A stretch of 64,000 nucleotides of DNA from Aurantiochytrium sp. KH105. Its lineage: Eukaryota > Sar > Bigyra > Thraustochytrida > Thraustochytriidae. The stretch is taken from positions 186,001 to 250,000 of the forward strand of contig BGKB01000036.1 in NCBI GenBank assembly GCA_003116975.1, given 5' to 3'. Positions 23,519-64,000 of the stretch are shown in pieces; position 1 is the first letter of the stretch; each line of letters opens with the position of its first letter. The notes under the pieces were generated by a model. It ran no database searches, was not told the DNA's origin, and saw only the letters and a list, made by a program, of their open reading frames with translations. The translations under genes and the position numbers were made by a program.

Positions 23519-23573
23519 CTTGCATGCATGCATTCATTCATTCATTTTTTTTTTCATATCCATTCGTTCATTT
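23519..23573. repeat. (CATT)n / poly(T) in convergent spacer
   Basis: Degenerate CATG/CATT tetranucleotides and a run of T's fill the 88-bp gap between two convergent stop codons; both 3'UTRs must overlap or be very short. Confidence 0.85.
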
Positions 23574-28636: not shown

Positions 28637-28669
<33 letters not shown>

Positions 28670-29610: not shown

Positions 29611-29700
<90 letters not shown>

Positions 29701-38200: not shown

Positions 38201-39038
38201 CACTGCGGCTGCGCGCACGTGCCGCGCCTCGAGGGAGAGAGGCCTCGGCCCTGCCCTGGCCGGCGCGCGACCCCGCGCTCGCCTCGTCCCACCGCCCAGC
38301 GTTCCCGCCCCGCCCGCGCTCGCCTCGGCCGGGCGCACACCCCCCCGCGCCGCGCAGAGCCCGCGCTCGGGCGCGAGGTTTCTCTGCGTGACCCCTCGGG
38401 GCTTCTTCCCGCGGGACTGTTGCTGCCTGCAGGAGTTTACCCGAAGGAGTGCTCTAGAACTTGATGCAGCGCAAGCTGACCCCCCCCGCGCGACGCGCGC
38501 ACACCCCGCGACAGGACGAAAGACTCGGGAGAGAACCCCGCGCGGGGGCAGGGTGCGCGAGAGCGGCGACCGTTGATGAACGGATCAATCTCGCCGGCGC
38601 CGCCCCAATAGCAAGCAGCCGCGAGTCCCAACTCCCCCGCGCACGCGAGTAGACAAACAGATAGCGCGAGCTGCGCAGAAGACGCCCACGCCCACGCGCA
38701 CGCGGGCTGCGGCGTCGCCTCGGGGCGCGGACGTGTCTGCCTGCCCTTTGGCCTGCACGGGATTGAGCGCGACGGCACGCGCCAGCTCGACGGGCCAGAG
38801 CAGCGGCGGCGGTTCGTGCTGCTGGGACGCGCCCATGACGACGATGGGGCGGCGAACACAGCCGCCAAAACCACGGCCTCAACCGCGTCCTTGCGAGCAA
38901 GAGCAAGAGCGATCAGAGACGCCCGCAAGCTCCGAGGGAGGCTGCGGATGCAGACGCGCCAAGCCAGCCGCACCGCTCATGCCACAGCCTGCAATGTCGC
39001 ACGTTCAACGCCCCGAGGAGGGGCCCTGCGCAACGGCG
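37984..39038. other. Divergent intergenic region D-I-x-G-A gene / giant LamG-IPT gene
   Basis: 1.06 kb, GC-rich, with an 82-bp TGCC array next to the minus-strand gene. The frame of the giant gene stays open upstream, with in-frame ATGs at 38835, 38979 and 38994, but the sequence there is Pro/Arg/Glu-rich and not signal-like. Confidence 0.65.
38119..38200. repeat. (TGCC)n microsatellite, 82 bp
   Basis: About 20 perfect TGCC units, the longest pure tetranucleotide array in the window, 136 bp upstream of the D-I-x-G-A start codon. Confidence 0.98.
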
Positions 39039-42000
39039 ATGCCACGCGCCAAGACGTTGTCGCGACGAGGCCTGCCGCACGCACTCGCGGCCGTGCTCGT
39101 GGTCCTTCTGATGACGCTTGTCGGCGGCGGGAGCCGCGCGGTCGCCACCGCTGCTGCTGCTGCTGCTGCTGCTACTGCCACTGCTTCTGATGCCTCTGGA
39201 GCGGCTTCCAACCCAGCCAAGGCATCCGACGCTTTCGTCGTCGCCGCCAATGATCTTCTCGCGTTCCTGCCCCTCGACGACCATGACGCCGCCGAGCCCT
39301 CAACTTTGCGGAATATTGCACCCTATGCCATCGACTCAGACAGCTTCGCGCTCGATGCCACGAACTGGGGCGGAAAATCTGTCGGCACCGGGCCCCTCGG
39401 CTCGCGCGCCCTCTTCGTGAACGGAACAGGATACGCGACCGTTCCGTACGACGTGCGCTCTTGCAAGCTCTCCTCTTTTACGACTGGCGCATGGGTCCGC
39501 CTTTCGAGTCTTGCGCAATGGAACGACCCCGAAGATGCCTTCGTGTTTGCATTGACGACCCCGCATGGGAGCGGATTGCCCGTCTGGGCCCTTGTCATCA
39601 ATGCCGGAGAATGGGTCCTCCGACTCGAAGACGGCGAGACCCAGCTCCGCTCAGGCGTCCACGTTGCGCTCGAGGCCTGGACTCTTGTCACACTGTCTCT
39701 CGACGCATCTCCGGCTACAATCGCATCGGGTACACCAACTGTAAAGATTCACATCGACGGCCAGCAAGTGGCCAGTCTTGCAATTCCGGGCGTCACGTCC
39801 TGCGCCTTGACAGGTGCAGAGACGCAAGAGCTCTCTTTGGGGGGAGGGCCTGCCCTTAAAGGTATGCACGGCTCGCTGCGAGCTTTCTTTCTTTACCGGA
39901 CGAACCTATCACCGGCCGAACATGCCAAGCTCGCCGTCGCGGGCAGCATTCTCGCGCGCGTGCCACCGACGCTCGCGTCGCGCTCGGCAGGCTATGCACT
40001 GCAGCTCTCTGGCACAGAAATTTTATCGCTTGACACCTTTCCTGGGGCCGCAGGGCGACGCATTACTGCTGCGGCAATGAGCTTTTGGGCACGCCCGATG
40101 CGCGCTACTCGCGCTGCCCCCGAGGCCCTTGCAGAGGCTGTGATTGCATCTCTTCTCGGCCCACAAGGGTCCTGGTTTCAGGTCTCCTTGCGCTGGGAAC
40201 CTCAAAAGGCCACAAGCGACCTTCGCGTCACAATCGGTCGGGGCGCTGGTGCAGACCCGTTCGTGTGGAACACCTACGTCACTTTGGACATGGACGTCTG
40301 GGCACATCTGGCTCTCTCTTGGGACCAAGATCTTGTCATTCTCTATGTAGACGGCGTCGAGGTGGGGCGTTTGCAGGACCTCGCGGGCCTGCTCGCGACC
40401 ATTGAGGCCCCCGGACCCGCCAGTCGTCTCGTGCTTGGAGCGCGCAGCCTCGACGAGGCCCTTCAGGGGAAACACATGTTTCTTGGCCAAATTGATAGCT
40501 TTCACCTTTGGGAACGCGCTCTCTCCGAAGACGACGCCGCTCGTCTGGCCATTTGCAGTAGCACGGGCATGGAGCCCGGTCTCGTAACCTACCTTCCGTT
40601 TCAGGAATGGCTCTTGCTCGCGCAGACTCGTAGTTTGGTCTGGGGGCTTGATGCGTGGGCGAGCTTGGAGCTCGTGTCGCTCGAGCCGATGCTTGACGCA
40701 CAGGCTGTTGTTCCGAGCACAGCACCAAGAGTTGACGACCGTCTCGTCACAGAAGAAGATCTCGCCGTTCTCTTTTTCTTTAATGCCAGTGACGCGCGAA
40801 GTCGCCCTCTCACAGTCACCTTGCGCTCTTTACCTGCCTCGGGGTCTCTTTTCCGCGTTGCTCAGTCTCGTGAAATTATTGAGGCCGACCTACCTCTCGA
40901 ACTCGAGGCCGGCGAGCTTCTAATGTTCGTCCCCACAGCACACGTCGTAGGCGAAGACCTCGCTTCCGTGAGCTACACTGCCCATGTCACTCCAGCTCAA
41001 GCACAAGCCGCCGACGAAATTCAATCCGCAGAAATCACCACCGTGTCTATAAGTGTGCTCGCGACTCCCGACGATGAGGACCTGGTGTCCGTTCTTCCTC
41101 ATGAACATATTCAGGTATCGCTTCTCAATCTCGCAATCAACGATGTTGATGCTCTCGAGGCCTCGTCTGGCCATGAGCTTCAGGTAGAGCTAGCGCTTGG
41201 CGCTGACTCCACTGCGAGCGTCGAGCTCGCGCAGGAAAATGGACTCCGCGTACAAAGCCGGACCGCTCGCGCGCTCACTTTCTCTGGCACCTTGGCAAAT
41301 ATCAACGCCGCTCTCGCAGAGGTCACAATTGACCACACACTCGAGTACGAGGGCTACGAGGACCTCCAGCTTGATGTCAACGATCTCGGTTACTATGGCA
41401 AAGGCGGCCCGCTCACGGCATCGCAACACTTTAGGATCGGAAGCAAGCTTGCCGCCATCCCATTGCTCACGGCTGCAGTGCCACGGGAAATCACGTTAGA
41501 CACCGAATCAATTCGCATTCGTGGCGCCAATTTTATTGGCGACGCAGAGAACATTCGATGCATCTTTTCTTACATTTCAAATGACGGACAGTACGCCACT
41601 GCGGAGGAACGAAGTGCAGTTGCAAGTAAAACGGCAAGCACCGAGAACAGTTTGCTCACCTGCTCTATTCCAGATGGACTTGCGCAAGATGCAATTCAGG
41701 CGGGACAAGTCTCAGTTACCGTCGAGAACGAGTCGCGCTTGCGTGGAAGTCTGCTTCAATTGCGCGTGCGCAACCCACTTCATATCGACTCGATCAGCCC
41801 GCGCCTTGGCCCCGTGTCAGGAGGCACCTGGGTCGTCCTCGAGATCACGGGGGGCGCGAGTCCGACTCAAGAAGGTGACGTCTGGACTTGCGTGTTTGGC
41901 GCAAAGATGGTGCGCGCATTCCGACAAAGCGATACATCTGTTCGCTGCCGCGTCCCGCCTGCGCAACAAAGCGGATACAATGTCACGATCGGCCTTTCGA

Positions 42001-45000
42001 GGAACGATGCATTTTATACCAGCCAACTGCGATTCTACTACGTCGATGAGGCAATCACCCAGGCTGTCATGCCAACACAGGGCTCCGAGGCATCAGGCTT
42101 TCAAGTGCAGGTATTTGGAAGCGCATTTGTCCCCAACGAGCACCTCGTCTGCGTCTTTGCTCTCGAACCAGACTTACCACGCGCTGCCGACGCCGCAAAT
42201 CTTATTCGAGTGTCCGCGTACAATGTTTCCGAGGATGAACAAAGGTCCACATCGCAGCTCGCGTGCGAGGTTCCGCCGCGGTCCGTGCTGCTCGCCGCCA
42301 ACCCGCATCTCGATCCCGTGACGGACGGTCTCACCGTTTATCTCTTCGTCTCCAATAATGGCGTTGACCTTGGAAACTCTCCTGCGCTCCCTCTTGAGTA
42401 CAAGGTGCTCCCAGAGCTCCTCACGGTGCAACCGGCGGTACTGCCCGTGGCCGGTGCCTTCCCCTTGGTCGTGCATGTCACCGATCTTGGGCATCACAGC
42501 TCGGGTCCTGCTGTTTGTGTTTTCAATCGAACGATTGCAGTTCAGGCAAGCAGCGTCTCTTCGTCTCAAGTCATTTGCGAGTCCCCGGCATGGCCTCACG
42601 CACAAGCCGGCGTCACCCTCCATGTGGTCACCTCAGATTTTCTCGACCTTCCTCTTTCGGATGCGCAGTTCGAGTCCGCTCTCACTGTTGATTTCGTGGC
42701 TCCAATGGATGAGTCTGGCGCTTTGGACGTCAGACCCAGTGCACTCACGTCACGTTTACAAGCACTCGAGGTATTTATTTCCACCTCGCAGCAGACCAGC
42801 TGGCCCGAGGATCTTGAATGTGTGCTCGAACCAAGCGATAGGCAGGAGACACTTTACTTTGCAGATGCTGTTGCGCTTACCGCACGCACTCGTGCCTGCA
42901 AGTTCGTCGCCGCGTCGCTCGACAACTCCACATCTGCGACATTGTGCTTGCGCCCCAGACGCCACGACGCAGCATACCAAGCGTCGTCGCTCGGATGCTC
43001 TGATCTCCCCGCCTTTGCTCAAGCCACCCTGCCAGTGCTCGGCGCCACACTGTTAACCTCACTCGCGCCGAGTACCGTGTCTTCCACTGGTGGGGCACAG
43101 GTAGTTGTGCAAGGACTCATTGCAGCTAACGCCTCTTCCGCAGAAGGCGTATTTTGCAAATTCTCCAGTGCGACCACATCTCATGCGCACGTGGTCCAGG
43201 CATCCTCTGCAAACGCAACAAGCGTCATTTGCGCGACCCCAATGTTATCCAAAGGCGTCCATGCCGTCTCCATTTCGACTGACGCGGGCTACCACTTTGT
43301 CTCCGCGGAGGGTCTACCCTTGACGGTGACAGAACCCTTTGGACTCCTTGCCGTTTCTCCGCGTCGAGCAGACCCGCGCGCCACCGAGGCGGTCATCCTA
43401 TATGGCTCCCGCCTGCAGTCGCTAGATCCCGAAACAGAATGCGGTTGGCGTTTTGCAGAGAATGCAAGCCTCTTTGAACGTACTTCTATCGTCGATCGTG
43501 ATGTTGACGGTCTTTGGCTTCGATGCCAGCTTCCGCATGCTGTCATGCCGCCTGCGTCGCTCACCGTTGAGCTCATGCAACACGACCTCCCCGTAGCAAT
43601 GGGGATGGACGTCTTGCGTGTCGATCTCGTGTCGCCGCCGCGGGCCATCGCGCTCTCGCCGCAGCATGGCCCTCCTGGAACATCAGTGCGAATTGATTTG
43701 GATAAACCATTGTCGCACGTTTCTTCGCGTTCCTGGCGCTGCGTCGATCAGACGGGCCGCCTACTCGCTTCAGTGGTCTGGGTTGACGAATATCAAGCTG
43801 AATGCACACTACCAGAGGATCCCGTGATAGAGTCCATTGGTGTGAAGGATGGCGCTCGCGAGGAATTTCTCATCGAGACTTTGCCCTTTTCTACGTGGCA
43901 AATCCTCGCTGGGGGAGTGCCGACGCGGACAATCTCAAAATCCTCCACGGTCGTCCCAGATAGCACGTCCGCCACAACCGCAGTTCTGGTTCAAGGAGTA
44001 CCTGGCAATATCCGAAATCTCAAGGACTTTGTTTGCGTCTACAGCTCGTACGGGCTCTCGGGCTCTCCGTCGACCTTTACTGTTTCGCCAACGAGAATCG
44101 CCAATGACACCTTGTCGGCCAACCTTGTCGTAGAGTGCATGCTTCCCGCTCTGCTCTCGCAAGGTACCTTTCGTCTTGCGATCTTTTGGACCCCTGGATC
44201 GGTCATGCTCACGGGCGAGAACAAGCTCAGCATCATTCAGCGTCCGCAACTTGCCCGTGCTGATCCTGCTGTTCTCTCCGCGAGCCTTGGTGAGGCCCGC
44301 GTGAGCATATTGGGCAACTTTGCGCTCGAATCCTCGAACCATTCGTGGACCTGTGCCTTTACCGGCGGTCCCGCCGTGGTCCATGTCGCTGCGTCATTGG
44401 TCGATGAAACACATCTTCAGTGTGACCCCGTTGACTTTGCGGCTAATGTAGGTGTTACCGACACTTCAGTCATGCTCACAGTCGCAGCATACGTTGATGA
44501 GCGAAGCGTTGGGAGTGTGCAGATCATGATCTTGGCAAATCCACGTACCGGAGCTTCGATTTGGCCCGGATCCACCCACGTAGGCGAAGAGGAAACTCTC
44601 TATGTGTCTTTCGGAGATGCGGCGGAGGCAATCTCTATTTTGGAAAGCTTTGCATGGGTGGGCTGTGCATTCACAAAGCAAGATACTGCGAACGAGGAAA
44701 TTGCTTTGGCGGTTGGCAATCTCCGCTCGAGCTCCTTACAGTGCACTGTTCCTCGTGCGATTTCACAAGGTTCCTATCAGGTTGATGTGGTTGGCAGCTA
44801 TCAGTCGGACGCGACGAATGCGCGCCATCAAATCTACAGTAACCCCGGACTTTTTCGCGTCGTCTCGCCAGTGCCTTTGCAGAGCGTCTCGCCCGCTTCG
44901 GCTATTGCAGGAGAAACGGTAGACATTGATTTGCATTTAGCAGACACCTTCGACCAGGGTTCTGAAGCAGTCGATGGAGTCCTATGCAAGCTTGCCGGAG

Positions 45001-48000
45001 GTACTCGAGTCGAGAACGCAACATTCTATGCTAATGAGAACCTCCATGGCGCACTTCGCTGCCGATTGCATACCGATTCATTTGCTGTGGGTACCCACGC
45101 AATTTTGCTCTCATGGACGGAAGGTGCGACTTTTGTCGAGCCTAGCGGCTTCCAGCCCTTTGAGATCTTGCCCGCGCTCGAGACATGGTCAGTGCTTCCC
45201 GATGTCGGCTCTCATCAGGGCGGTACGCAACTTGTGGTACGAGGAGACAATTTTCCTCTCAACAGAACGCTGGAGTGCAAGTTTCACAATGGGCCCCGTT
45301 TGCTTATCTCGCCGGCGTCGGCAGTCTCGGCGGATACGGTCGAATGCCAATCGCCTTCGGTGGATCTTATTCCGGATGCTCGACGCGAACTCTTCTTTGT
45401 ATCAGTTGGTATCAGTGGTGAGCCCGTACCTGTTGCGCCGCATGTTGTCACTTTTACATTTGTGGAGGACCCTGCGGTGAGGACGATCTTCCCGGAAGTA
45501 GGGCCCGAGAGTGGTGGCACGGAAGTCATTCTTCAAGGCGAAAATTTTCCGCTGGAAAGTGACCTTTTTTGCCGGTTCGGTGGCTTACATGTGGCTCCTG
45601 CTGTGGTTTATAGCGCAGAACGCGCAATTTGCATAACCCCGCCTCATGCACCAACGCTAGACTCGGGCCCTGTCGCTGTCGAGGTTTCCGTGAATGGCGT
45701 TGACTATGTCAGGGGAGACTCGATCGCCTTTTCGTACGTTATGCTTACACGTGTTAGCTTTGTTGAGCCAGAGCACGCATATGTCGGCGCTCGAGTTCAG
45801 GTCTTTGGAACTGGATTTTACCCGACGGGTCAGGACCGCTCTGTTGTCTGTCGGTGGGGAGAGGTCGCCAGCATCGGTACTTGGATCTCGTCGACGCAGG
45901 TAGAGTGTGTGGTCCCAGACCTTGGCGACGACCTCGTCAGGGAGTCTCCCACCTTTGTGTCTCTCCAAGTCTCTTGCAACGACGGCCAAGATTTTACAGC
46001 CCGCGAAGATCATCTTGGCGTCTACGTGGAAACGCTAGGATCTCTTGCGAGTATTGAGCCTCGAAATGGCCCTCTTGAAGGCGGCACGGAAATGACTATA
46101 TCGATGGAGGGATCTTTTGGCCAGCGCGCGCGCGATGACTTTGTCTGCATCTTTGGTAGTCGCGACGTCGTCGAAGCTATTCCGCATCAAAAAACGGATC
46201 GGGGCCTGTTTACGTGTATCGTACCGGCGGCATCAGCTCTCGACGATGGTGTATACGTTTCACTGCATGTTTTGCCTCGCTCACTGGTTCAAGAAGACAA
46301 TCTTACGGCTTCTACGGAGGGACATCCGACCTTTTTCTTCCGCTACGATGCTGAGATTGATCTCGAGTCCGTCTGGCCAGAAATTATCCAAGAGGGCTCG
46401 GCCACGCACGTCAACGTCGTCGGAGCAGGTTTTCGAGCTGATGCAGACTTGCTGTGCAGAGTTGGCTTTGGATCTTCACCAGTATCCGCTCGCCTTCTCA
46501 CGCCTTCGCTTGTTCAATGCCCAGTGGACCTCAGTAAACTTCGACCTGGTCGTATTCAGCTCTCCATCACAGGAAACGGCCAGCAGTACTCGAATCAGGT
46601 CGATCTCACGCTCATCGCACAGTCGCAAGTGTCTTCTGTGGAGCCCGGCTCTGGCCCCGTGCATGGGGGTACATCCGTTACAGTTCGCGGGACGGGCTTC
46701 ATGGCCGGTCCAGACTTCGCATGCTACTTTGGAGGCACGAAAGCTGCTGCAGCGCACGTGATCTCCAGCACGGAAGTTCGATGCGTTGCACCGCGAACGA
46801 ATCTTGCACACACCGTCACTGTCAGTGCCTCGAACACAGGGGGGTTGGATCAAGCGGGGCTTTCCGCTGCACAGTTCGCGTTCGTGAGAGCTGCAACAGT
46901 TGCCCAGGTTTACCCAGTGCGCGCAGATATTGGAACTCGTGTTTTTCTCTCTGGTTTATTCCCATCAACGCCTTCGGACGCTCTTTTGACGACGACCCTG
47001 TGCCGCTTTGGGGTGGTAGAGACCCCTGCGCAACGCGTCAATGATACCTCAGTCTCTTGTACGGTTCCGCGACAAATGGAATCCCAGCTCGAAAACGCGC
47101 ATTCTGCATCGCTAGACCTTAGTGTGAGCTTCAATGGCGGTGCAGACTACTCTGTGTCCGCCCGATTTACTTTGGCAAGAGCCATCGAGGTCGCCAGCAT
47201 CTTTCCGACATCGGGCGCAGCTCGTGGAGGGACCGAGGTCGTGCTCAGCCTTGCGCAGGACGTAGACACCGCCCTCGTGACGGGACCTGCCCTCTGCCGA
47301 TTCGGGCAAAAGTCCCCATCACAGGGCCGCTGGCTTGATCGTCGCCGCGTAGCGTGCGTCTCACCACAGCTTACGCCTGGTGCACATATTGGAGTAGCGC
47401 TCAGCACAGACGGCCTTCATTTTAGTTCATCGCCGCGCCTCTTTTTGGCCGAGCCCGATTTCAATATTGTGGCTCTGGCACCCCAAGAAGGTACCGAGGT
47501 GGCCGGTTTGGACGTATTGATCACGACCGAAAGCGAGTTCCCTCTGCCGAATGATCGGGCGATCCTGTGCAAATTCGGCCAGGCCAATACTGCGCTGGGC
47601 CGCAGACTGAGTGATCGCACCGTGTCATGCGCTCTTCCTGCCGGTAGCAAGCCTGGCAATCTTACCATTGCGCTGTCTCTCAATCAGGGTCAGGACTTTG
47701 TGGTGAGTCCTGTAGATTTCGTAGTTCGGCCCAAAGATAGCGCAGGTCCAAGCCTTTTGTCGCGTCTCGCACCACGTTCTGGCGCGTCGGGTATTCGCAT
47801 TCTTTGGCCAGACTTTAATGTGCAGGAGGATGTTGAGTGTAGCTTCAATGCGGCCGCACGCACGCCCCTTCGCCGCGTGGCTGAGTTGGACCAGACCTTT
47901 GAATGCGATATCCCTGGCGAAACAGGTGTGGGCGCAGTTTCCGTTGCACTAGGAAAGAAGCACGGGTCTCATTTTATCACGCTCGCCAAGGTTGGCCAAA

Positions 48001-57000: not shown

Positions 57001-60000
57001 AAACTCCTCTTCCACCTCACAATGGGCCGGTTGTGGTGGAAGTGACTACGAATGGAATCGACTACTCTTCGGACCTCGTCATGTATACCTTCACGGAACA
57101 ACCTTTGGTGTTTGGGATTTCGCCTCTCAGCGGACCTCAAATCGGTGGAACGCAGGTCACCGTGACTGGAGCCAATTTTCGAGAGGGTGTAACATGTCGC
57201 TTTGGAACGACAAATGTCGAAGTCACTCGAATCGTGAGCAGCACGGAGCTTGTTTGCATTACCCCATCGGTAACGATCGACAATATGGGTGCCACGCGCA
57301 AGGTCCAAGTCGACGTCTTCGATCAAGGCTCTCTGAATCAGAGCGAGACTGGCCTTGCACCTTCGCAGGCTACTTTTTTCCTGTATGTGCCGGAAGTGAC
57401 GCTCGACAGTCTGTTCCCGCCGCATGGTCCATGCTCGGGCGGCACGCTACTGACAATCTACGGAGCTGGCATGTATCAGGACGAAAGCTTGCCACTGCCG
57501 CTCTGCAAATTTACCGTCGTGGACACCTCCCCTTTTCAAATGTACGAGGTGCCAGCCCAAGTCTTCTCAGACACGAGTATCGCGTGCGTCACGCCAAGCA
57601 TTGATTCCGGGTCATGTGGCTCGCGCTCTCACGTGCTCGTCTCTGTGAGCTTTAACGGCCATGACTATGCAAGCCCTGCTCTTTCATATGTGTTTGTCCC
57701 CGATCCAATTCCTCATCGGCTCTCCACGGCAAGAGGTCCTGCTCAAGGCGGCTCCGTAGTACGCGTATTTGGAGAAAACTTTGTTCGTTCTCCCCTCACG
57801 TCGTGTCGCATTGGTGACGATGTTATCCAGGCCAACTACATTTCTCCTTCTGGCGAGTTCATCGACTGCACGACTCCAGCAGACAGGCAGGAGGTGAATG
57901 AGGTCCAAGAAATTTTTGTGACGACCACAAGCGAGCCCAATGCGACGACCTATGGGATTTTTCTCTCGTCCTTGCCGGCTCAGGAGGAGATTCAGCGTTT
58001 CGCTCTCCATGCTTGGGGTGAAGACTCCGTTTCTGGAGCAGTAGCAGAGGTTCAGGTTGTTCATGTGCGCGGTGGCGGGCCTATCCAGGGTACCTTTACT
58101 CTCTCCTTTCGTGGCGAGACGACAGTTGCGCTTCCCTACGACGCGTCTGCCGAGGGCGTGACGGACGCTCTTAACGCACTTGAGGAGATTGAAGGAGTCA
58201 TTGTTGAGCGAAGCGCCAATGCAAATTATTTTGCATGGACAGTGACGTTTGAAGGGAATGCAGGCGACCTGGAACCTATTCTTACAGACAGCTCTGGGCT
58301 CTCAGGTCTCGCCAATGATGACACTGTCATGGAAGTCACGGAGCTTCGCGCGGGGACTTCTGCCGCAATTAGCTCGGGCACTTTTGCACTCGGCCTTAAC
58401 GGTAGCGTGCAGACGTTGCCATTCGATGCCAGCGCCACTGATTTCCAGCAAGCACTGGAGACTCTTCATGGAGTGGCCGACATCACAGTGGCACGCTCCG
58501 CAGCGCCAGACCGCAACGGCGCGTACACATGGGAGGCCACGTTTCCAGGCACTCTCGCTTATGAACTTGCAAGTGTCGATGTTACAGGGCTCGCTCCGGC
58601 CACGGCCGTTGCCTGTGCGTACGAGCGCGAGCAAATGGGTAGTACGCCAGGGGGGAGCTTCGTACTGTCTTTTGCTGGAAATGAAACGCGGACACTTGAT
58701 GTCACGTCAACGTCAAGCGAAATCGAAGTCGCCCTCCGCGAGGATGTCGAGCTCAATGCCACAGTCAGCGAGACAGTAATCGCAAACTCTTCGCTCTGGG
58801 AGAAGCGCATCATCCTCACTTTCGACGATCTCGAGGGCGTCCCGCTCGAGCTCGGTGTTGACATCACGGGTGTCACCGGCACAGAGTCTGCCTTTCGCGT
58901 GATAGATATGGCTCGAGGCGCCCAGCGCCTCGGGGGAACCTTTCGAGTCGGATATGAAGGTGCGTGGTCTCCCCAGCTTTCGTTTTCGACATTGACTGCG
59001 TCTGACCTGGCCACAACACTGCAAAGTTTGCCAACGGTCGGTACCGTCCGTGTGTCTGAAATACTTCGCGAGGAGGACGCGTTCGCTCGTTGGAGAATTA
59101 CATTTACGTCCCGAGGATCTCCGGCAAACATCGGTCCCTTGCCGCTGCTGGACGTCGAGTCTGACTTTGGCGTTGGGACCAACTTTTATTTGCGCGCCAA
59201 CAGAATTCAAGCCGGTTGCTGTTCATTGTCTGTCACGATTGATGGACAGCAATTTTCAGACACCCTTGCCTATCGCTATGATTGGCATCCTCAGGTGGCT
59301 TCTCTCTCGCCGCAGTATGGGTCTCCTCACGGCAAAACACTCTTGTCGATCCATGGTTCAGGCTTTTATGAGGCTCAAGCTATTTCCTGCGTCTTTGACG
59401 GGACGCTTGAGTCGCTGGCGAGATTTGTGAATGAGTCGATGCTTGCTTGCGTGACGCCTCCTTTATCCGCTCTTCAAGATGCAAACCCTACGCTTGCGGG
59501 CCAGCGCGACGTGCACGTCACCGTACGTTATCCGCTTGACCATGCCGAAACGCACGAGTCGCAGACCTTTGCAACGTTCAAGTTTTCATTGCCACTTCAT
59601 ATCCAGACCATCCAACCACCTCGGGGAAGTCTTCGCGGCGGTGTCGTTTTACGCGTGACTCTCGAACACGATATTACGCTCGATGAAGTCGATCATGCCG
59701 CTTGCGTTTTCGAGACAAATCCTCTTGAGACTGTGGCGGCGACGCGAGAAAGCGCAAGGTCTCTTGCGTGCTTGGTCCCTTCGCATGCCCCAGGTCTCGT
59801 GGCTGTTCGGGTCACGCTGAATGGTCACGATCTTTCAAAAAATGCGGCATTCTTTCAGTATGAGGAGGCTGTTCGTGTTCACAGTCTGAGCGTGACAAGC
59901 GGATCCCGCGCAGGAGGAACATTGATACACGTCTATGGCTCTAACATTCCTCGTTCCGAGGAGCTGTCATGTGACTTTGGGGACCGCGGTATGGCTCCTG

Positions 60001-63000
60001 CGATGTGGCATGCCTCGAGTCAAGCCTCGTGTGTGCTTCCGGGTCCTTCGGGTATCGATCTCTCTACGAATGATCGCGTACTCGTGCGCACGACGAGCCG
60101 AGTCGAAGATCTCAGTTTCGGGCAACAAACCTTTTCCATGTACTCTGCCGTTTCCGAAGTGGAAGCAGCCACGGGATGTGCGACATTCGATGTCAACCGC
60201 ACGTACTACAACGGCACTGAGATGTCGTGGCTGGCGGAGACAAGCTGTGCCGCGGCTCTTGTTGCTAGCGCTAGCTCTACCCTTGGCGTTGAGGTCCTCG
60301 CGAGCGACACTGTTCTGGTAGCTCTCACGTCGAACGGTGTTGAATTTTCGAACCCGATGGAGTTCACAGTCTTTGATGCGCCGACAGTGACAAACGTGGA
60401 ACCAATCTCTGCACCGCTACAAGGTGGCACGGTAGTGACCCTCTCCTTGGATATTGATGGCTCGCAACTAGATATCTCTTGCTGGTTTGGCGATCGAAGG
60501 GTCCTCGGCGTGATTGTAAACGGTGGAACTGCTGTGGAGTGCGTTGCGCCATTGATGGAGCGCGTTCAGGATGTGACGCTTCGTTTGTCCGCAAATGGAG
60601 GTGTTGACTTTCTCGCTGGTGCCACCGTCTTCACCTACGAGAACACCGTTCCGGCCACGATTTTCGCTGTCGAACCTCTCTCCGGTCCTGCCTCCGGAGG
60701 CACTCGAGTGGTTTTGAGCGGACAAGGAATCGCTCATCTTGGTCTTGGAGGTCAGGTTACATATTGCCTTTTCTCAAGTGGAAACGAGGTGGTCACTACA
60801 GAAGCTGTTGCGAGTGGGTCGGATGGGCTGGCATTAGAGTGCCAAAGCCCTCGTCGCAGTGAGTTTTCGTCCATGCCAAGATTTGTCTCACTTGACGTTG
60901 GCGTCGGCGAGCAGCGGCAAATTCTTACTGCTTCGCACATGAAGTTCGTGTATGACGACGACGTGGTGATCCAAGCGATCAATCCGCCGCAGGGTATGCG
61001 CTTAGGCGGCTCTGATATTCTCGTGCGGGCTGGACCCATTCCAGAGGCAAGGAGGGGCATGGACGGACAGTTGCTTTGTCGCATCGGATCCGAAACTGTT
61101 AATGCCGAGCTTGTTGAACCTGGAGATATTGCTACATTGCGCTGTGCAATCCCTGAGAGAAGTTCCGATCCTCATGTGGAATCGGTTTGGTTTGACGGCC
61201 CTCGGCCTCGCCACCGCGTCGAGCGCATCGAGATTCGAGCACCTGCTCCCAGTGCCGAAGAAGGCATCATCACTCTTGAAGGCAACGTGGTGGAGTCAGA
61301 CATCCAAGTCGTCACCATGGCTGGACCGGATACGCCTGGGACGTTCAAGCTGTCAACAACCCTTGAGGCTGCGGATCGCACAAAAGTCATTGCCGTAGAA
61401 ACGTCTGCGAGCGCCGTGTATCCTGAAGCCCACCTGCTAGCAGTGGAAGCAAACATTGAAACACAGCAAACAGTTGCGACGATGGCGTTTCATGTAGTCC
61501 CCGAGGCTGTGGTGTTCGAGGTGCAGACACTGACGATTGCTGCGACCTCGGGTCTCACCGGTATTTTCACACTGGCTTGGAATGGAACAAGCTCAATGGC
61601 TACCCTCGCGGCTGAGTGCTCGGCCGAAGATGTTCGAGCCGCACTGGCGGCGGTAGCGGGGCTTGAGAATGTGCAAGTGAGTCTCAATATGCTGTCGAGC
61701 GTCGCAGGCTTTCGCCGCGACTGGGCCATCACGTTTCCTCTCATCACCTTGTCCTCTCCAGTTCCGCTCATTACAGTTGAAGACGGTCTGCTGGAGGGCG
61801 TCGGTCTGATGACTCGTGTCGAGCGTTTTGTTGCCCAAGCAGCGAATGAGTTGCAACTTCTCCGCATTAGCCGCGTGGCCGATGACGTAACAGTATCCCT
61901 TAGCGAGAGCACTTCAACTCTCCGCCTCGCAAACGCGGACCTGACGGATGTAAACAAGGTGCTAGCGTGGTTGGAAAGTGTACCGGCCTTTGGGTCTGGG
62001 CAGGTGAGCATTGTGGCGTCTGCGGCAGCCTCGGATGGAAACTTTGCAGCATACGAGGTAAGCTTTGATGGGGTGAATGGCGACTTTCCGCCCTTGAAAC
62101 TTTCCGATGCAGTTTCAGAGGTGGAAGAACTTCGCAACGGGACGAGCGAGATTCTCGGCGGGCTGGTTGAAGTTGAGGTAACCACCAACGCTGGTTTCTC
62201 GAATCTCGTTTCAATCAACTTGGACGTCTACCGGGCGGATGAGCTGAGCCAAGAACTCGCAGACGCTTTTCCAGAGTACAGCTCAGATCTCTTTTCAATC
62301 TCAGTGGACCGTAGCTCGTCTGGCATGGGTAGAAACGGGGCTCGAATCCTGACCATCCGTCTCCCCCCATACTTTGATTTCGCACTTGCATCCACAGAGG
62401 CCATGCATGGAACAGGTGTCACGATTTCAACAACAGTGGAAACGGGCCTCGCCGCAGATTCGGGCACATTTCAGTTCCGTATCGTGTGGCCAGCAAACCT
62501 TGGATTCTCATCATTCTCAGGGACGCTAGCAGTCGACGCTTCAGCAGCAGATGTGACAGCAGAAATTCTTGCGTTAGAACCTAGCTTCCCGCTCGGCCAA
62601 GTTGTAGAGGTGGATACAGGCCCGTTCCGGTACGCTTGGCGAATCGAGCTTGATACGCCTGACATGGCATATTCCAGCACGGATCCGCACCACTTTGAGA
62701 TTGACGATAGTGGTCTCATTGGGTTTTCTGCTTCCGCGATTCTCGAACGCAGCGCCAAATTCAACGAGGTGCAGGAAATTGCCACTGATACGGCGTCCGT
62801 CAATGGGCGTCTCTCTGGTGTCTTTGCTCTCACGCTGGGCGAAGCATATGGGAGGGTACGTGGACTTGCATACGATGCCAGTGCCGCTGAGGTACAGGAT
62901 GCCATCCACACGCAAGCGCCGCTCATGGGGGCCGTGTCAGTGTCACGTACAGATCTGACCCGGACGCGCTATGCGTGGACGGTCACCTTTTTAGAGCTTG

Positions 63001-64000
63001 CGGGGACACTGCCCAGATTCCAAGTCGACACATCCTCTCTGCACTCCAGTATACCTGGCGACGAGGCACTTGTCACCGTGCGGAAAGTTCAGCGAGGCGA
63101 AGGAGAACCTCTCTATGGCGCATTTACGCTCCGCTGTCTGCACTGCGCTCCTGGCGTTCAGGAAACGTTCATCCCGTTTGATGCGAGCGCGGCGGAGTTC
63201 CGCGATGGTGCAAACGAGTTGCTGTCTCGAGGCGGGTCGCTTTCGTCCATCAGCGAAGTTTCTGTAAGCAGCCCTGACCTGAATGGAGCTCGCGCATGGA
63301 TGGTGACCTTCGCAGCCGGCAAGGACGATGCTCTACCTCCCGATCTCGAAGTACGTCTTGGGTCGTTGGGCGGTTCAGGAGCAAACGTTGACCTCCGTGT
63401 CGAAACCGCCGCAAGTGTCGCCGAGGTTCAGTCGATCAGTGTCCCGTTGACCTTGTCGGGCTCAGCAAGCTGTCTGGCAAATGGCGGGTCTTTCAGCTTT
63501 GCTTTTGCAACGAGCCCGGGCGACATGGCCTCTCTGATCGCTGACGCTCTCGGAACCGACGAGACAGTGAGCGTGAGTCGCGCGGATGGCGCCAGCGAGC
63601 GGATCTGGCGTGTGACATTTCAAGACCGCGTCGGAGATGTGCCTGATACGCTCCTCGCCTGTTCAAACCCAAGTTTTAATGTCGCCACGCAGGTGCAGGG
63701 AACAGGCACTCCTTTGGGCGGCACATTCTATCTTCGGCACGATGGCATGGTCTCTAGCGACCTTGCCTTTGATGCAAGCGCTGCTGAGGTCGAAGCCGCT
63801 CTAGGTGAGCTGGGAATTGACGTTCTCGCTGTGGCACGATCGACTAGTGCTGACTTCAATGGTGGGCTGGCATGGGAAGTTACTCTGGGTCGTAACGTGG
63901 CTCCTGAGCCCGTTTACGCGGGAAGTCTAACCGGAACAAACGCACGAGCATATTGGGCTGCGGTCGAACCTTTTCTCGAGCCTCGCAACGAGACCTTTTC
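39039..64000 (+). CDS. Giant secreted LamG / IPT-TIG repeat protein, open at window end
   Basis: One frame runs from the ATG at 39039 to the right edge, at least 8,320 residues; I checked phase at 41520, 50451, 57060, 58137, 62871 and 63957 and it never shifts. MPRAKTLSRRG followed by LPHALAAVLVVLLMTLVGGG is a good signal peptide, then an Ala tract (GCT repeat 39150-39173). Then come two LamG-like domains (~residues 70-510), a Tandem-95/cadherin-like segment (~560-807), a long IPT/TIG array (~815-6305), a block of DASA repeats (~6330-6730), more IPT (~6750-7400) and a second DASA block (~7470 to the edge). IPT units carry the usual P-x-x-G-x-x-x-G-G-T-x-V-x-V-x-G-x-x-F opening and two Cys. 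It is presumably a cell-surface or matrix adhesion protein; any membrane anchor lies beyond the window. In-frame ATGs upstream (38835, 38979, 38994) are possible but would bury the signal peptide. It is not an obvious fibrocystin (no G8 or PbH1 seen). Confidence 0.92.
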   Translation, partial: MPRAKTLSRRGLPHALAAVLVVLLMTLVGGGSRAVATAAAAAAAATATASDASGAASNPAKASDAFVVAANDLLAFLPLDDHDAAEPSTLRNIAPYAIDSDSFALDATNWGGKSVGTGPLGSRALFVNGTGYATVPYDVRSCKLSSFTTGAWVRLSSLAQWNDPEDAFVFALTTPHGSGLPVWALVINAGEWVLRLEDGETQLRSGVHVALEAWTLVTLSLDASPATIASGTPTVKIHIDGQQVASLAIPGVTSCALTGAETQELSLGGGPALKGMHGSLRAFFLYRTNLSPAEHAKLAVAGSILARVPPTLASRSAGYALQLSGTEILSLDTFPGAAGRRITAAAMSFWARPMRATRAAPEALAEAVIASLLGPQGSWFQVSLRWEPQKATSDLRVTIGRGAGADPFVWNTYVTLDMDVWAHLALSWDQDLVILYVDGVEVGRLQDLAGLLATIEAPGPASRLVLGARSLDEALQGKHMFLGQIDSFHLWERALSEDDAARLAICSSTGMEPGLVTYLPFQEWLLLAQTRSLVWGLDAWASLELVSLEPMLDAQAVVPSTAPRVDDRLVTEEDLAVLFFFNASDARSRPLTVTLRSLPASGSLFRVAQSREIIEADLPLELEAGELLMFVPTAHVVGEDLASVSYTAHVTPAQAQAADEIQSAEITTVSISVLATPDDEDLVSVLPHEHIQVSLLNLAINDVDALEASSGHELQVELALGADSTASVELAQENGLRVQSRTARALTFSGTLANINAALAEVTIDHTLEYEGYEDLQLDVNDLGYYGKGGPLTASQHFRIGSKLAAIPLLTAAVPREITLDTESIRIRGANFIGDAENIRCIFSYISNDGQYATAEERSAVASKTASTENSLLTCSIPDGLAQDAIQAGQVSVTVENESRLRGSLLQLRVRNPLHIDSISPRLGPVSGGTWVVLEITGGASPTQEGDVWTCVFGAKMVRAFRQSDTSVRCRVPPAQQSGYNVTIGLSRNDAFYTSQLRFYYVDEAITQAVMPTQGSEASGFQVQVFGSAFVPNEHLVCVFALEPDLPRAADAANLIRVSAYNVSEDEQRSTSQLACEVPPRSVLLAANPHLDPVTDGLTVYLFVSNNGVDLGNSPALPLEYKVLPELLTVQPAVLPVAGAFPLVVHVTDLGHHSSGPAVCVFNRTIAVQASSVSSSQVICESPAWPHAQAGVTLHVVTSDFLDLPLSDAQFESALTVDFVAPMDESGALDVRPSALTSRLQALEVFISTSQQTSWPEDLECVLEPSDRQETLYFADAVALTARTRACKFVAASLDNSTSATLCLRPRRHDAAYQASSLGCSDLPAFAQATLPVLGATLLTSLAPSTVSSTGGAQVVVQGLIAANASSAEGVFCKFSSATTSHAHVVQASSANATSVICATPMLSKGVHAVSISTDAGYHFVSAEGLPLTVTEPFGLLAVSPRRADPRATEAVILYGSRLQSLDPETECGWRFAENASLFERTSIVDRDVDGLWLRCQLPHAVMPPASLTVELMQHDLPVAMGMDVLRVDLVSPPRAIALSPQHGPPGTSVRIDLDKPLSHVSSRSWRCVDQTGRLLASVVWVDEYQAECTLPEDPVIESIGVKDGAREEFLIETLPFSTWQILAGGVPTRTISKSSTVVPDSTSATTAVLVQGVPGNIRNLKDFVCVYSSYGLSGSPSTFTVSPTRIANDTLSANLVVECMLPALLSQGTFRLAIFWTPGSVMLTGENKLSIIQRPQLARADPAVLSASLGEARVSILGNFALESSNHSWTCAFTGGPAVVHVAASLVDETHLQCDPVDFAANVGVTDTSVMLTVAAYVDERSVGSVQIMILANPRTGASIWPGSTHVGEEETLYVSFGDAAEAISILESFAWVGCAFTKQDTANEEIALAVGNLRSSSLQCTVPRAISQGSYQVDVVGSYQSDATNARHQIYSNPGLFRVVSPVPLQSVSPASAIAGETVDIDLHLADTFDQGSEAVDGVLCKLAGGTRVENATFYANENLHGALRCRLHTDSFAVGTHAILLSWTEGATFVEPSGFQPFEILPALETWSVLPDVGSHQGGTQLVVRGDNFPLNRTLECKFHNGPRLLISPASAVSADTVECQSPSVDLIPDARRELFFVSVGISGEPVPVAPHVVTFTFVEDPAVRTIFPEVGPESGGTEVILQGENFPLESDLFCRFGGLHVAPAVVYSAERAICITPPHAPTLDSGPVAVEVSVNGVDYVRGDSIAFSYVMLTRVSFVEPEHAYVGARVQVFGTGFYPTGQDRSVVCRWGEVASIGTWISSTQVECVVPDLGDDLVRESPTFVSLQVSCNDGQDFTAREDHLGVYVETLGSLASIEPRNGPLEGGTEMTISMEGSFGQRARDDFVCIFGSRDVVEAIPHQKTDRGLFTCIVPAASALDDGVYVSLHVLPRSLVQEDNLTASTEGHPTFFFRYDAEIDLESVWPEIIQEGSATHVNVVGAGFRADADLLCRVGFGSSPVSARLLTPSLVQCPVDLSKLRPGRIQLSITGNGQQYSNQVDLTLIAQSQVSSVEPGSGPVHGGTSVTVRGTGFMAGPDFACYFGGTKAAAAHVISSTEVRCVAPRTNLAHTVTVSASNTGGLDQAGLSAAQFAFVRAATVAQVYPVRADIGTRVFLSGLFPSTPSDALLTTTLCRFGVVETPAQRVNDTSVSCTVPRQMESQLENAHSASLDLSVSFNGGADYSVSARFTLARAIEVASIFPTSGAARGGTEVVLSLAQDVDTALVTGPALCRFGQKSPSQGRWLDRRRVACVSPQLTPGAHIGVALSTDGLHFSSSPRLFLAEPDFNIVALAPQEGTEVAGLDVLITTESEFPLPNDRAILCKFGQANTALGRRLSDRTVSCALPAGSKPGNLTIALSLNQGQDFVVSPVDFVVRPKDSAGPSLLSRLAPRSGASGIRILWPDFNVQEDVECSFNAAARTPLRRVAELDQTFECDIPGETGVGAVSVALGKKHGSHFITLAKVGQTYLYKPFQVGPLVSTTIEEGQASVKVWANQMPNIRRARCRFANAQGARYADGFVIMPDHGVLDCSIPAGLSPGSYIIGVSVDNAGNDFVEAQGEALRVLPFLSIDEIIPAQGPPSGGTLVTVRASIEFDAESLARDPVLCAFQALDGSQRWKESPATLSTTHQGALSCYTPAQRASGDAAISLLRYSSQRAGTTSGALSQALLAPHFFSYMDPPRVLSVSPPAGPTTGGFRIELSTFSRIGELARPLLARFELPDGKVKDVRCADVIDVESEAAGVLVSCDVPSSPEAGWARLSLASQGTSHAASANFLFYAPYTIESVSPMGASEFGGPRVIIETSRPVTGALRGLVQSGASCRFGTSSRIPARWLDASHLECIAPRHPPGKAMLAVSLVADGPLLDLRPENEFFTFHDAETLSSVEPAQMRASYGNREVALRGTNFATGMKCRFGDVAVEARVQNVNLAFCTVPRPLVAGTQTVALQVNRWNAWDETWAEHLQDFVHFTYVEEMVVLGISPPTLFPGENVNVTVQGLQGQDVASNAISCAFGAFASQPATVLDDGLSLSCTSPVFDIPAESAYALAHLRIVDALGNRLDVSDGSAGSVVEFRRRPRVFQVEPLVIAQEEADDSDGLTLTFGGVGFSSRASLVCIFEASNEAISMTPVTTESTSTATCELPRNTAVGGIYVAVASREAALLATSRGKTNVAGLALAPMGRLRLHVVPQAMVHSLSPSSVSVTGGMELHVQGEGFLRIRDLENGNLLCHFRNGKRTLASVVNDTHVRCTAARASSPGEDLVHLSHSKGSKYLVRGTGALTYYPFARVLHLSPRFGSVQGNTLLTIVGDGLEELAAAQKVNGATLHCCFSSARDNLSMCTEAALVGGNTVQCTTASWPRALDAVEREVVAVRVLSQAQAQESHYSQHQSALFSYVPSPVALCVSPSTFSEVGGEQVLIEGNNFLALDPTLEPECIFGAGLSMPAQILSPETMVCTTPENLVPGPIALRVRFNGQDTTEIEDSLEVFTQATATSLEPTLGSAVGGTLITVRGTQFVRSSDLSCIFHGEPGVHVKVPAHYVSATTVTCGSPPMYLGLSKNEEPLHTFAVEVSNSGTFDRNRTSLARMPTFTLHAPLSIARVSPGTVHAESLVSLSLTFDVQSDANMLRFCRYGSIQSELEVRIDGDQTRASCTFAVPAGSIGAARPVWVSANGVDWHATENVVTVVPDVVVDTLIPMSGHHHGMSQVTLRGHGFSSFGALACRFGGGPSTRAVWISAQEIQCTFSQAAKDAHAVGEVLSVAIAADGVHFQETGKFFTLLPMTQIYELQPRRAASDQPVTINIVGANMNVIDPERASCLVRRQGSSLGDWHHHVPAEIISATQAQCQSMSLAAGTYEIDLLTNGVDPAFSTSPQIYTTVRPPVVSHMWPRQGSAAGGTQITLFGSGFSKSELMMCTFGANQQNPARFVSGEALTCTVPPVPTSAVGSVQISLSTVDGAVRAKGAFTFRYLAVPISENAIPAAIFADANVSSLVIVGRDFVDTNEGTCTWYLGTSEETLTVPRTYLDPSRVACDVPMISRPGVVRVMPTNDGHTGLLPVAVKILAVPRCATFEPATLLRSQPATTLRVIFAESLQVTDVSDIRGEFSCQLWNEDSLRTFSAQLSYDLQSLDCHDVSLETDGEYSIDILVSGVKIPQTCGSNRIHVVSTASIAPDQNWSLSMAGGFDVPLRGSGLEFIHGPVRCLFGDATAGFARKHSSDEILCVSPQMVDSGRVEVRLVDAHDTILDTNVHVNFVEPITIEHVHPTLLPEAGGTEVHVQVKGDFHGRDVRCQFGSAMVDAKVDASGYTVTCKAPRVVPSQVSFAIVVGQQEVVAATDPVTFIPQVSVSEISPGAGLVVGRAPVTIRGTGFANLGQLHCSFDTFGSEPAVLIDAETLVCVTPALPADLHNAELHTTLFIYGGEDGLVEVARLENAYVFYPTPRVEDVFPTLISAPSLVASAIGSQALISVYGQAFPRIQGSSCRILQHASDGVVASHVSPRPLTWRSREQVDCVLDASQLEIGDVRLEISFDGANFIAAGRLSVRGPVQVHGVEPRRLDALGGTPLLVRGEGFIRSANLQCKIGPSTIVPADLVDSATLRCVAPAQHPGPAVLSVSVNGRDFSEPSWSASVEYAPSFAVASVSPASGSRMGGTTLTITGTNFELGAPMYCRFKDVDSGDEVRVPAQTVSASQLRCMSPAWHGLKTAILDIVHANDIFTESLDRTTLHFTYHADALPEHIVPAFGPASGGSEVHIFGRDFMSTPSLQCIFDGTTKTPATFVSTNELLCITPPVPERLHMPVTVRIQVTNDGNSVSSSLQYTYVPRLQVSRVFPSFVAAGVAGAITIVGQGFRDSTLLSCRVGGLSDAFFTAEYLSDERMRCSWSRLAVPPGAYEVHVSNNGHDYEATSFVVEAAAEQPQQDRARIPMTGGHRIRVGPFATRRLHAASGIVCEFNNAGSAAVLDEENDNYVLCSSPVFATPGQISLSILALQDDEAADEEILWHAQESLTVHEPFLITNVLPRSFSMAHSTRAQLTLLHEVPEGSSHDIEVELSYPSGAVVLVPATIVGEREVEVDIPAVPLDEAGGENSLPVSLRLRLEGHPDPSQTPARAVHRAEPVLIAMSPHIVTAGSLVMPIVLTLDAAVSMHDDARVLCRFGATTVSGTRLGPLQAVCDAPPMAAGETSSVEISLDGERFTESGFELSYISSLEAFHVSPDRVEDRGGSELVIHGQEYPAELSSMMRCRFRSESQNLLAAAVTTRATWINENEIHCIAPSREEAQALESSFIVISLVLPTALPGTFVELTRDNDELMFTYVPTAEVVGIWPRRGPARGGTLVQVHGTGFSDLLELACVFSLEDDEDAVAVHVPAEFVSSSEVRCESPSRALLLSHALEASSSSRAAVRVSPNGADLSASHAAFVFEIIAKVHKVYPESGPAQAGSTVTLFGAHFADTSALSCRFGMSSPSAAVYISDSEIRCQTPLPPHNGPVVVEVTTNGIDYSSDLVMYTFTEQPLVFGISPLSGPQIGGTQVTVTGANFREGVTCRFGTTNVEVTRIVSSTELVCITPSVTIDNMGATRKVQVDVFDQGSLNQSETGLAPSQATFFLYVPEVTLDSLFPPHGPCSGGTLLTIYGAGMYQDESLPLPLCKFTVVDTSPFQMYEVPAQVFSDTSIACVTPSIDSGSCGSRSHVLVSVSFNGHDYASPALSYVFVPDPIPHRLSTARGPAQGGSVVRVFGENFVRSPLTSCRIGDDVIQANYISPSGEFIDCTTPADRQEVNEVQEIFVTTTSEPNATTYGIFLSSLPAQEEIQRFALHAWGEDSVSGAVAEVQVVHVRGGGPIQGTFTLSFRGETTVALPYDASAEGVTDALNALEEIEGVIVERSANANYFAWTVTFEGNAGDLEPILTDSSGLSGLANDDTVMEVTELRAGTSAAISSGTFALGLNGSVQTLPFDASATDFQQALETLHGVADITVARSAAPDRNGAYTWEATFPGTLAYELASVDVTGLAPATAVACAYEREQMGSTPGGSFVLSFAGNETRTLDVTSTSSEIEVALREDVELNATVSETVIANSSLWEKRIILTFDDLEGVPLELGVDITGVTGTESAFRVIDMARGAQRLGGTFRVGYEGAWSPQLSFSTLTASDLATTLQSLPTVGTVRVSEILREEDAFARWRITFTSRGSPANIGPLPLLDVESDFGVGTNFYLRANRIQAGCCSLSVTIDGQQFSDTLAYRYDWHPQVASLSPQYGSPHGKTLLSIHGSGFYEAQAISCVFDGTLESLARFVNESMLACVTPPLSALQDANPTLAGQRDVHVTVRYPLDHAETHESQTFATFKFSLPLHIQTIQPPRGSLRGGVVLRVTLEHDITLDEVDHAACVFETNPLETVAATRESARSLACLVPSHAPGLVAVRVTLNGHDLSKNAAFFQYEEAVRVHSLSVTSGSRAGGTLIHVYGSNIPRSEELSCDFGDRGMAPAMWHASSQASCVLPGPSGIDLSTNDRVLVRTTSRVEDLSFGQQTFSMYSAVSEVEAATGCATFDVNRTYYNGTEMSWLAETSCAAALVASASSTLGVEVLASDTVLVALTSNGVEFSNPMEFTVFDAPTVTNVEPISAPLQGGTVVTLSLDIDGSQLDISCWFGDRRVLGVIVNGGTAVECVAPLMERVQDVTLRLSANGGVDFLAGATVFTYENTVPATIFAVEPLSGPASGGTRVVLSGQGIAHLGLGGQVTYCLFSSGNEVVTTEAVASGSDGLALECQSPRRSEFSSMPRFVSLDVGVGEQRQILTASHMKFVYDDDVVIQAINPPQGMRLGGSDILVRAGPIPEARRGMDGQLLCRIGSETVNAELVEPGDIATLRCAIPERSSDPHVESVWFDGPRPRHRVERIEIRAPAPSAEEGIITLEGNVVESDIQVVTMAGPDTPGTFKLSTTLEAADRTKVIAVETSASAVYPEAHLLAVEANIETQQTVATMAFHVVPEAVVFEVQTLTIAATSGLTGIFTLAWNGTSSMATLAAECSAEDVRAALAAVAGLENVQVSLNMLSSVAGFRRDWAITFPLITLSSPVPLITVEDGLLEGVGLMTRVERFVAQAANELQLLRISRVADDVTVSLSESTSTLRLANADLTDVNKVLAWLESVPAFGSGQVSIVASAAASDGNFAAYEVSFDGVNGDFPPLKLSDAVSEVEELRNGTSEILGGLVEVEVTTNAGFSNLVSINLDVYRADELSQELADAFPEYSSDLFSISVDRSSSGMGRNGARILTIRLPPYFDFALASTEAMHGTGVTISTTVETGLAADSGTFQFRIVWPANLGFSSFSGTLAVDASAADVTAEILALEPSFPLGQVVEVDTGPFRYAWRIELDTPDMAYSSTDPHHFEIDDSGLIGFSASAILERSAKFNEVQEIATDTASVNGRLSGVFALTLGEAYGRVRGLAYDASAAEVQDAIHTQAPLMGAVSVSRTDLTRTRYAWTVTFLELAGTLPRFQVDTSSLHSSIPGDEALVTVRKVQRGEGEPLYGAFTLRCLHCAPGVQETFIPFDASAAEFRDGANELLSRGGSLSSISEVSVSSPDLNGARAWMVTFAAGKDDALPPDLEVRLGSLGGSGANVDLRVETAASVAEVQSISVPLTLSGSASCLANGGSFSFAFATSPGDMASLIADALGTDETVSVSRADGASERIWRVTFQDRVGDVPDTLLACSNPSFNVATQVQGTGTPLGGTFYLRHDGMVSSDLAFDASAAEVEAALGELGIDVLAVARSTSADFNGGLAWEVTLGRNVAPEPVYAGSLTGTNARAYWAAVEPFLEPRNETF
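39150..39173. repeat. (GCT)n coding poly-Ala after signal peptide
   Basis: Eight GCT codons giving an Ala run just after the predicted signal peptide of the giant protein. Confidence 0.95.
39249..40580 (+). other. Two LamG/concanavalin-like domains of the giant protein
   Basis: First domain: LAFLPLDDHD, then SRALFVNGTGYATVPY, FTTGAWVRLS and LVTLSLDAS with a buried WVL strand, the LamG3 pattern. Second domain: AGYALQLSGTE, MSFWARP, VWAHLALSWDQDLVILYVDG and FLGQIDSFHLWERALSEDD, the typical closing strand of LamG3 domains. Such domains bind glycans or proteins; specificity is unknown. Confidence 0.85.
40710..41460 (+). other. Tandem-95 / cadherin-like segment of the giant protein
   Basis: Contains FSGTLANINAALAEVTIDHT and LQLDVNDLGYYGKGG, the pattern (G-T-x-x-x-I-N-A-A-L ... 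L-x-L-x-V-x-D-L-G) seen in Tandem-95/cadherin-like repeats of adhesion proteins. One clear unit, possibly a second degenerate one before it (TVTLRSLPASGSLF). Confidence 0.7.
41480..57960 (+). repeat. Main IPT/TIG repeat array (about 55 units)
   Basis: Protein-level tandem array with a unit of about 85-105 residues (260-320 bp). Clear unit openings include those near 41.8, 45.2, 45.5, 46.1, 46.7, 47.2, 48.3, 51.1, 52.3, 53.4, 54.2, 54.5, 54.8, 56.2, 56.6, 57.1, 57.4 and 57.7 kb, e.g. ISPLSGPQIGGTQVTVTGAN followed by CRFG, and VEPGSGPVHGGTSVTVRGTG. Most units hold one Cys in C-[RKVI]-F and a second in V-x-C-x-x-P. Divergence between units is high, so this is an old array with no recent amplification visible by eye. 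Confidence 0.88.
58030..59230 (+). repeat. DASA repeat block 1 (four units)
   Basis: A different repeat from IPT, unit about 95 residues: G-T-F-x-L-x-F-x-G, then [YF]-D-A-S-A-x-x-[VF]-x-x-A-L-x-x-L-x-x-[VI], then V-x-R-S...Y-x-W-x-[VA]-T-F. Units open near 58.07, 58.36, 58.64 and 58.93 kb; YDASA is encoded at 58137 and FDASA at 58422. Almost no cysteine, unlike IPT. I do not recognise a named family. Confidence 0.8.
59290..61240 (+). repeat. Second IPT/TIG block (about six units)
   Basis: IPT units resume: LSPQYGSPHGKTLLSIHGSG (about 59.3 kb), then units opening near 59.6, 59.9 (SGSRAGGTLIHVYGSN), 60.4, 60.67 (VEPLSGPASGGTRVVLSGQG) and 60.98 kb (INPPQGMRLGGSDILVRAG). Confidence 0.85.
61450..64000 (+). 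repeat. DASA repeat block 2 (about eight units, continues past window)
   Basis: DASA-type units open near 61.53, 61.85, 62.13, 62.46, 62.81, 63.11, 63.45 and 63.71 kb. The hallmark is encoded at 62532 (VDASAA), 62871 (YDASAAE), 63177 (FDASAAE) and 63768 (FDASAAE). W-x-V-T-F or a variant closes most units. Confidence 0.8.

Follow-up and report, generated by a model that had tools for sequence, protein, structure and literature searches.

We asked what is encoded by a single reading frame so long that it leaves the stretch of DNA in which it was noticed. This stretch, called the window here, comprises 64,000 nucleotides of Aurantiochytrium sp. KH105 (C36:186001-250000, GC content 50-68%) within an unannotated genome of 76 Mb in 367 contigs; if the assembly holds both haplotypes, the haploid size is about 38 Mb. 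Such a size lies within the 30-60 Mb given for thraustochytrids (PMC12258536), and the GC content of the window is above the 45% stated there for the Aurantiochytrium genome. PfaA-like matches of 930 and 456 bits, on separate contigs, are consistent with a thraustochytrid origin as well, although both are below the whole-protein cut-off and the same search gives matches in 11 of 14 control genomes. The initial annotation described an uninterrupted frame of at least 8,320 residues from 39039 to the window edge, and allowed for an overlooked in-frame stop. We found the frame to be open throughout and onward to a TAA at C36:261603-261605, about 11.6 kb outside the window (equivalent to window position 75605). 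There is no in-frame stop and no N, and each of the other five frames contains 207-465 stops from residue 154 on. The features located in the window are as follows; residue 1 is the codon that follows the upstream stop.

38580..64000, continuing to C36:261605, plus strand: open frame of 12,341 codons stop to stop, beginning directly after the upstream stop
38835..39041, plus strand: candidate start codons M86 (38835), M89, M134, M139 and M154 (39039)
39069..39125, plus strand: hydrophobic segment, residues 164-182, predicted signal peptide or signal anchor (hydropathy only)
40071..40535, plus strand: LamG domain, best stretch of the Pfam match Laminin_G_3, residues 498-652
41478..61169, plus strand: IPT/TIG array of 59 domains, residues 967-7530 (iterated profile; 58 above the best decoy)
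58089..59183, plus strand: first block of an unnamed repeat, residues 6504-6868
61338..64000 and beyond the window, plus strand: second block of this repeat, residues 7587-8985

The frame had been called exceptional for being both long and intronless. Its length is indeed unusual, and 37-kb single frames are rare in eukaryotes; single-frame genes as such, on the other hand, are ordinary in this genome. For example, RPB2, with 1,235 codons and seven domains, occupies one frame within the window, and so do a Dis3-like RNB protein and most of a condensin subunit; meckelin does the same elsewhere in the genome. The window also holds a 2,051-codon frame on the minus strand (23572-29727) for which Pfam gives nothing at E<=0.001.

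A second copy of the giant gene is found on contig C17, where the frame has 12,336 codons and is likewise open. The two regions are collinear: the main block has 95.9% DNA identity over 41,674 columns, the flanks align as well, and 11,886 of the 12,327 aligned residues are identical (96.4%). Most likely the copies are two haplotypes; that the region was duplicated long ago is the alternative that we favour less. About 7 kb of C36 downstream of the giant frame, outside the window, are absent from the C17 copy.

Since dN/dS between the two copies is 0.18 over the whole frame (dN 0.017, dS 0.093), we conclude that the frame is coding. A value under 0.6 is seen in 157 of the 161 windows of 150 codons, overlapping and taken from residue 154 onward, and the other four, at 0.61-0.76, are indistinguishable from neutral; over the whole stretch the deficit of nonsynonymous change has a binomial log10 p of about -189. 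A chance or artefactual frame is ruled out by the second copy, the synteny and dN/dS. Potentially, hidden in-frame introns or internal promoters could still divide the frame into several genes or a spliced gene. In favour of this there are ten stretches of 81-314 residues without a named domain (e.g. 653-966 and 7745-7961), the four near-neutral windows, and a weak codon model that learned from three neighbouring genes and gives scores below zero in 63 of 245 windows. On the other hand, the same model still ranks the giant frame first in 231 of the 245 windows (two of the 14 exceptions end by residue 150), dN/dS is 0.17-0.47 in nine of the ten stretches and 0.71 on 8 changes in the tenth, which lies beside the leader, and the two copies differ by just 23 gap residues. 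A long neutral insert is unlikely, because dN/dS is low across both the windows and the stretches without a named domain. Short in-frame introns are possible, and we consider a split or spliced gene highly improbable. In what follows we assume that the giant frame would yield one transcript and one polypeptide.

The start proposed at 39039 is not conserved, as M154 is replaced by Arg in the C17 copy; counted from there, the protein would have 12,188 residues, about 8,320 of them inside the window. Residues 1-85 diverge between the copies far more than the following part, and residues 86-190 have 7 nonsynonymous against 2 synonymous changes. Residues 86-190 thus show no purifying selection either, and the start codon probably lies in the range M86 to M139.

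What does the outer part of the protein look like? The signal peptide of the initial annotation corresponds to the hydrophobic leader at residues 164-182, which we see by hydropathy only. Its LamG domain is borne out by a Laminin_G_3 match of 90.1 bits (cut-off 27.6) in two stretches, the second placed by eye at about residues 225-440; residues 571-670 also give a weak PDB match to neuronal pentraxin-1 (E 0.0025). We were not able to confirm the Tandem-95-like repeats: no NCBIfam family matched at E<=0.1 in residues 1-1020, the part searched, in a library that may not include this model. The corresponding N-terminal part of a paralogue (see below) matches Cadherin_4 at 20.2 bits, under the cut-off of 25.1.

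More than 50 IPT repeats had been claimed, and this number was exceeded. With an iterated profile built from the giant proteins we counted 64 IPT/TIG domains at residues 967-9429, of which 62 score above every decoy; 58 of the 62 are inside the window and four clear ones outside it, at residues 9025-9429. Of the six decoy hits, the best at 10.6 bits, five fell on the 2 reversed sequences, one on the 8 shuffled ones and none on the 2 C-terminal ones. Matches to PF01833 (IPT/TIG) pass the curated cut-off in the giant protein, and a genome scan with the stock Pfam models finds at least 26 IPT places in the frame. The overlapping Ig-like families TIG_plexin, Anth_Ig and CoaZ_rpt_PGGG are above their cut-offs in places, and the IPT part has a weak PDB match to plexin. 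The array is interrupted by the first block of the unnamed repeat and by some unnamed stretches. It looks old, since the six best-scoring pairs within one protein share just 37-44% identity; a recent tandem expansion is disfavoured for the same reason. N-glycosylation sequons are not enriched (58, against 34-65 in shuffles with a mean of 50.7).

The unnamed repeat is about 100 residues long, follows the pattern GTFxLxF...DASAxdVxxAL...WxVTF and occurs in 13 clear and 4 doubtful copies, with zero decoy hits. We did not find it in the paralogue, and in the pieces searched nothing in Pfam or NCBIfam exceeded the cut-off; sub-cut-off matches to HMA, DUF5060 and two NCBIfam families in the repeat block were taken as chance. 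None of 39 pattern matches in genome_contigs and none of 75 in viral_contigs was confirmed as a relative of the repeat, in scans with two short peptide patterns that may miss distant relatives.

Beyond the window, the IPT rod is followed by CPxGxYC repeats, a membrane-proximal region, hydrophobic segments and a tail. We counted 14 C[PA]xGx[YFHV]C motifs at residues 9435-10226; Ephrin_rec_like matches the window protein at 15.8 bits, under the cut-off of 23.1. The C-terminal anchor expected past 64000 exists, not as a single span but as 11 hydrophobic segments (residues 11176-11688, a rough count by hydropathy) and a tail of about 650 residues (11690-12341). In the tail, which is probably cytosolic, we noted acidic stretches (SSDEED), a pair of LSxxS-type motifs, a basic end and, by eye, a coiled coil. 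A sub-cut-off match to BLI1 in the tail was taken as chance.

Furthermore, the genome contains a paralogue of the same plan, with copies of 10,224 codons on C53 and 10,212 on C179. It has 62 IPT domains, 59 of them above the best decoy. In its Cys-rich part, Ephrin_rec_like slightly exceeds the cut-off twice, in a search that covered the frame except for a 1-kb piece. Base and tail are the same as in the window giant; the bases align with 25% identity over 1,410 columns (E 2.5e-115). The count of membrane segments is rough, as hydropathy gives 11 in the window giant and 9 in the paralogue, the same cut-off also flags 6 segments inside the rod of the window protein, and the leader of the paralogue, with values of 1.52 and 1.64 in its two copies, is missed once at the cut-off of 1.6.

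We wanted to know whether the base belongs to any described family. Against Pfam at E<=5 there was no match to it, except for EPV_E5 in the paralogue (E 0.1), which is below the cut-off and was taken as chance. Neither a phmmer search with residues 9975-11806 nor a profile of the two-giant alignment found anything in the PDB at E<=1. Within its own genome the base occurs, among the best candidates scored, only in the two giant genes with two copies each. None of 64 pattern matches in viral_contigs and none of 103 in genome_contigs was confirmed, again with two short peptide patterns that may miss distant relatives. The search took in the genome itself and viral and prokaryotic collections, and homologues of the base may well exist in other stramenopiles.

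The two parts of the protein evolve at different speeds. Between the two copies of the window gene, dN/dS comes to 0.22 over residues 154-9433 but to 0.03 over residues 9434-12341, where there are 18 nonsynonymous and 171 synonymous changes. Between the C53 and C179 copies of the paralogue it is 0.22 (residues 80-7800) and 0.044 (residues 7801-10224). The base thus has a rate about seven-fold lower than the rod in the window gene and five-fold lower in the paralogue. The ratio drops from 0.15 to 0.04 where the Cys-rich neck begins, near residue 9434, and the paralogue has its step at the corresponding position. The strongest constraint is on the Cys-rich neck, the membrane base and the tail, and this pattern is found twice.

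This bears on what the protein does. One reading is a structural adhesin or coat, in which the rod does all the work (between cells, on the substrate, or as a coat of the wall or ectoplasmic net) and the membrane part would only be an anchor. Adhesion proteins often carry LamG domains and arrays of IPT domains, both are present here, and the paralogue has a similar rod. However, the presumed anchor is the slowest-evolving part in both genes, and it is hard to see why a plain anchor should have 9-11 segments and a tail of such length. We regard this reading as rather unlikely. Another one is a precursor that is cut after synthesis, so that the ectodomain would be shed into the wall or matrix and the membrane module would act as a separate functional protein. 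The rate step fits such a cut, particularly as it recurs in the paralogue, but it is also compatible with an uncut receptor, and the autoproteolytic GPS domain is absent among the Pfam matches listed. We consider a cut precursor improbable.

That the protein is, as initially annotated, a cell-surface protein of giant size is probable from the hydrophobic leader, the LamG domains and the more than 50 IPT domains; the role suggested there in wall, ectoplasmic net or attachment is possible. Beyond this, we give an even chance to the proposal that the frame is one gene for a multipass cell-surface receptor of about 12,200 residues (about 1.3 MDa) with an adhesion or mechanosensory role. It builds on the single open frame, the domain order, the two syntenic copies, the paralogue of the same plan and the two-speed evolution; mainly because the last is found in both genes, we prefer a receptor over a passive adhesin. 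Eleven hydrophobic segments after a leader fit a rod outside and a tail inside the cell. In such a receptor, the N-terminal LamG domains would form the outermost tip and recognise a ligand, most probably a matrix protein or a glycan. About 60 Ig-like IPT domains together with the second repeat would form a rod, perhaps a few hundred nanometres long, and the CPxGxYC repeats would form a disulphide-rich neck. The module of 9-11 membrane segments and the membrane-proximal region would hold the rod and relay tension or binding inward, and the tail, with its acidic and LSxxS-type motifs, putative coiled coil and basic end, might couple to the cytoskeleton or to signalling partners. On the other hand, the strong constraint on the base might reflect a role in transport, secretion or assembly instead of sensing. 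The rough segment count, the sub-cut-off Ephrin_rec_like match in the window protein and the lack of sequon enrichment also count against the proposal.

Several known systems resemble the proposed receptor in part. In polycystin-1, a very long ectodomain of Ig-like repeats is combined with about 11 membrane segments and a coiled-coil tail. The giants share the long Ig-like-repeat ectodomain and have 11 (window giant) and 9 (paralogue) hydrophobic segments by rough hydropathy, and the window giant has a putative coiled coil in its tail, but PKD_channel is found in neither, though 45 places elsewhere in the genome match it (both haplotypes counted), and PLAT and GPS are absent from them among the Pfam matches listed. 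Fibrocystin and PKHD1L1 are surface proteins with IPT/TIG arrays and one membrane span; the arrays are similar, whereas the giants have several hydrophobic segments and lack G8, which occurs at 12 places in the genome. Meckelin (TMEM67) has a Cys-rich part and then several membrane segments, an order that recurs in the giants. However, the meckelin of this genome, matched at 2 places, is a separate frame of 1,227 codons on C20 and C131, and Meckelin (PF09773) is not among the matches listed at E<=5 for the base of either giant. An identity with meckelin, polycystin or fibrocystin is unsupported by the family searches (PF09773, PKD_channel, G8). Giant bacterial adhesins also have a long Ig-like rod on the cell surface, for example that of Mobiluncus, reported to have 7,651 residues and 51 Ig-like repeats (PMC10619420); here, in contrast, the gene is eukaryotic, with a multipass base and a probable cytosolic tail.

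Giant length alone is not new, since more than 41,000 proteins in UniProtKB exceed 5,000 residues, according to a published report (PMC11573180). The unusual point is that a 37-kb single frame encodes both an IPT rod and a strongly conserved multipass base without a family match. Among the literature matches listed, in a search with most of the subscription literature outside its scope, no publication was titled on such a protein. A more tentative extension, which we hold to be doubtful, is that the base, with its membrane-proximal region, 9-11 membrane segments and tail, is an undescribed receptor module to which this lineage would have added IPT rods to make giant mechanosensory or recognition receptors. 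These would be similar in plan to polycystin-1 while having arisen separately, and might rank among the largest such receptors. Thraustochytrids have a unique attachment organelle whose proteins are described as largely uncharacterised in one report, which names 18 candidate genes, none of them given as tested (PMC12221091). If the receptor reading is true, the conserved base would offer a compact target, both for deleting the gene and for tracing relatives in other stramenopiles, and the protein would represent a second way in which giant multipass adhesion receptors can arise.

Other long single frames that encode IPT domains occur in the genome, on C71/C25 (4,716/4,717 codons), C49/C90 (4,458/4,402), C128/C134 (4,432/4,427) and C47/C33 (4,568/4,527). 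They are apparently haplotype pairs and are not among the matches listed for the base search. Single frames of 5,708 and 5,831 codons are also seen on C27 and C56, where the PfaA model gives several ketosynthase-like matches; judging from these matches, they may perhaps encode a giant polyketide synthase.
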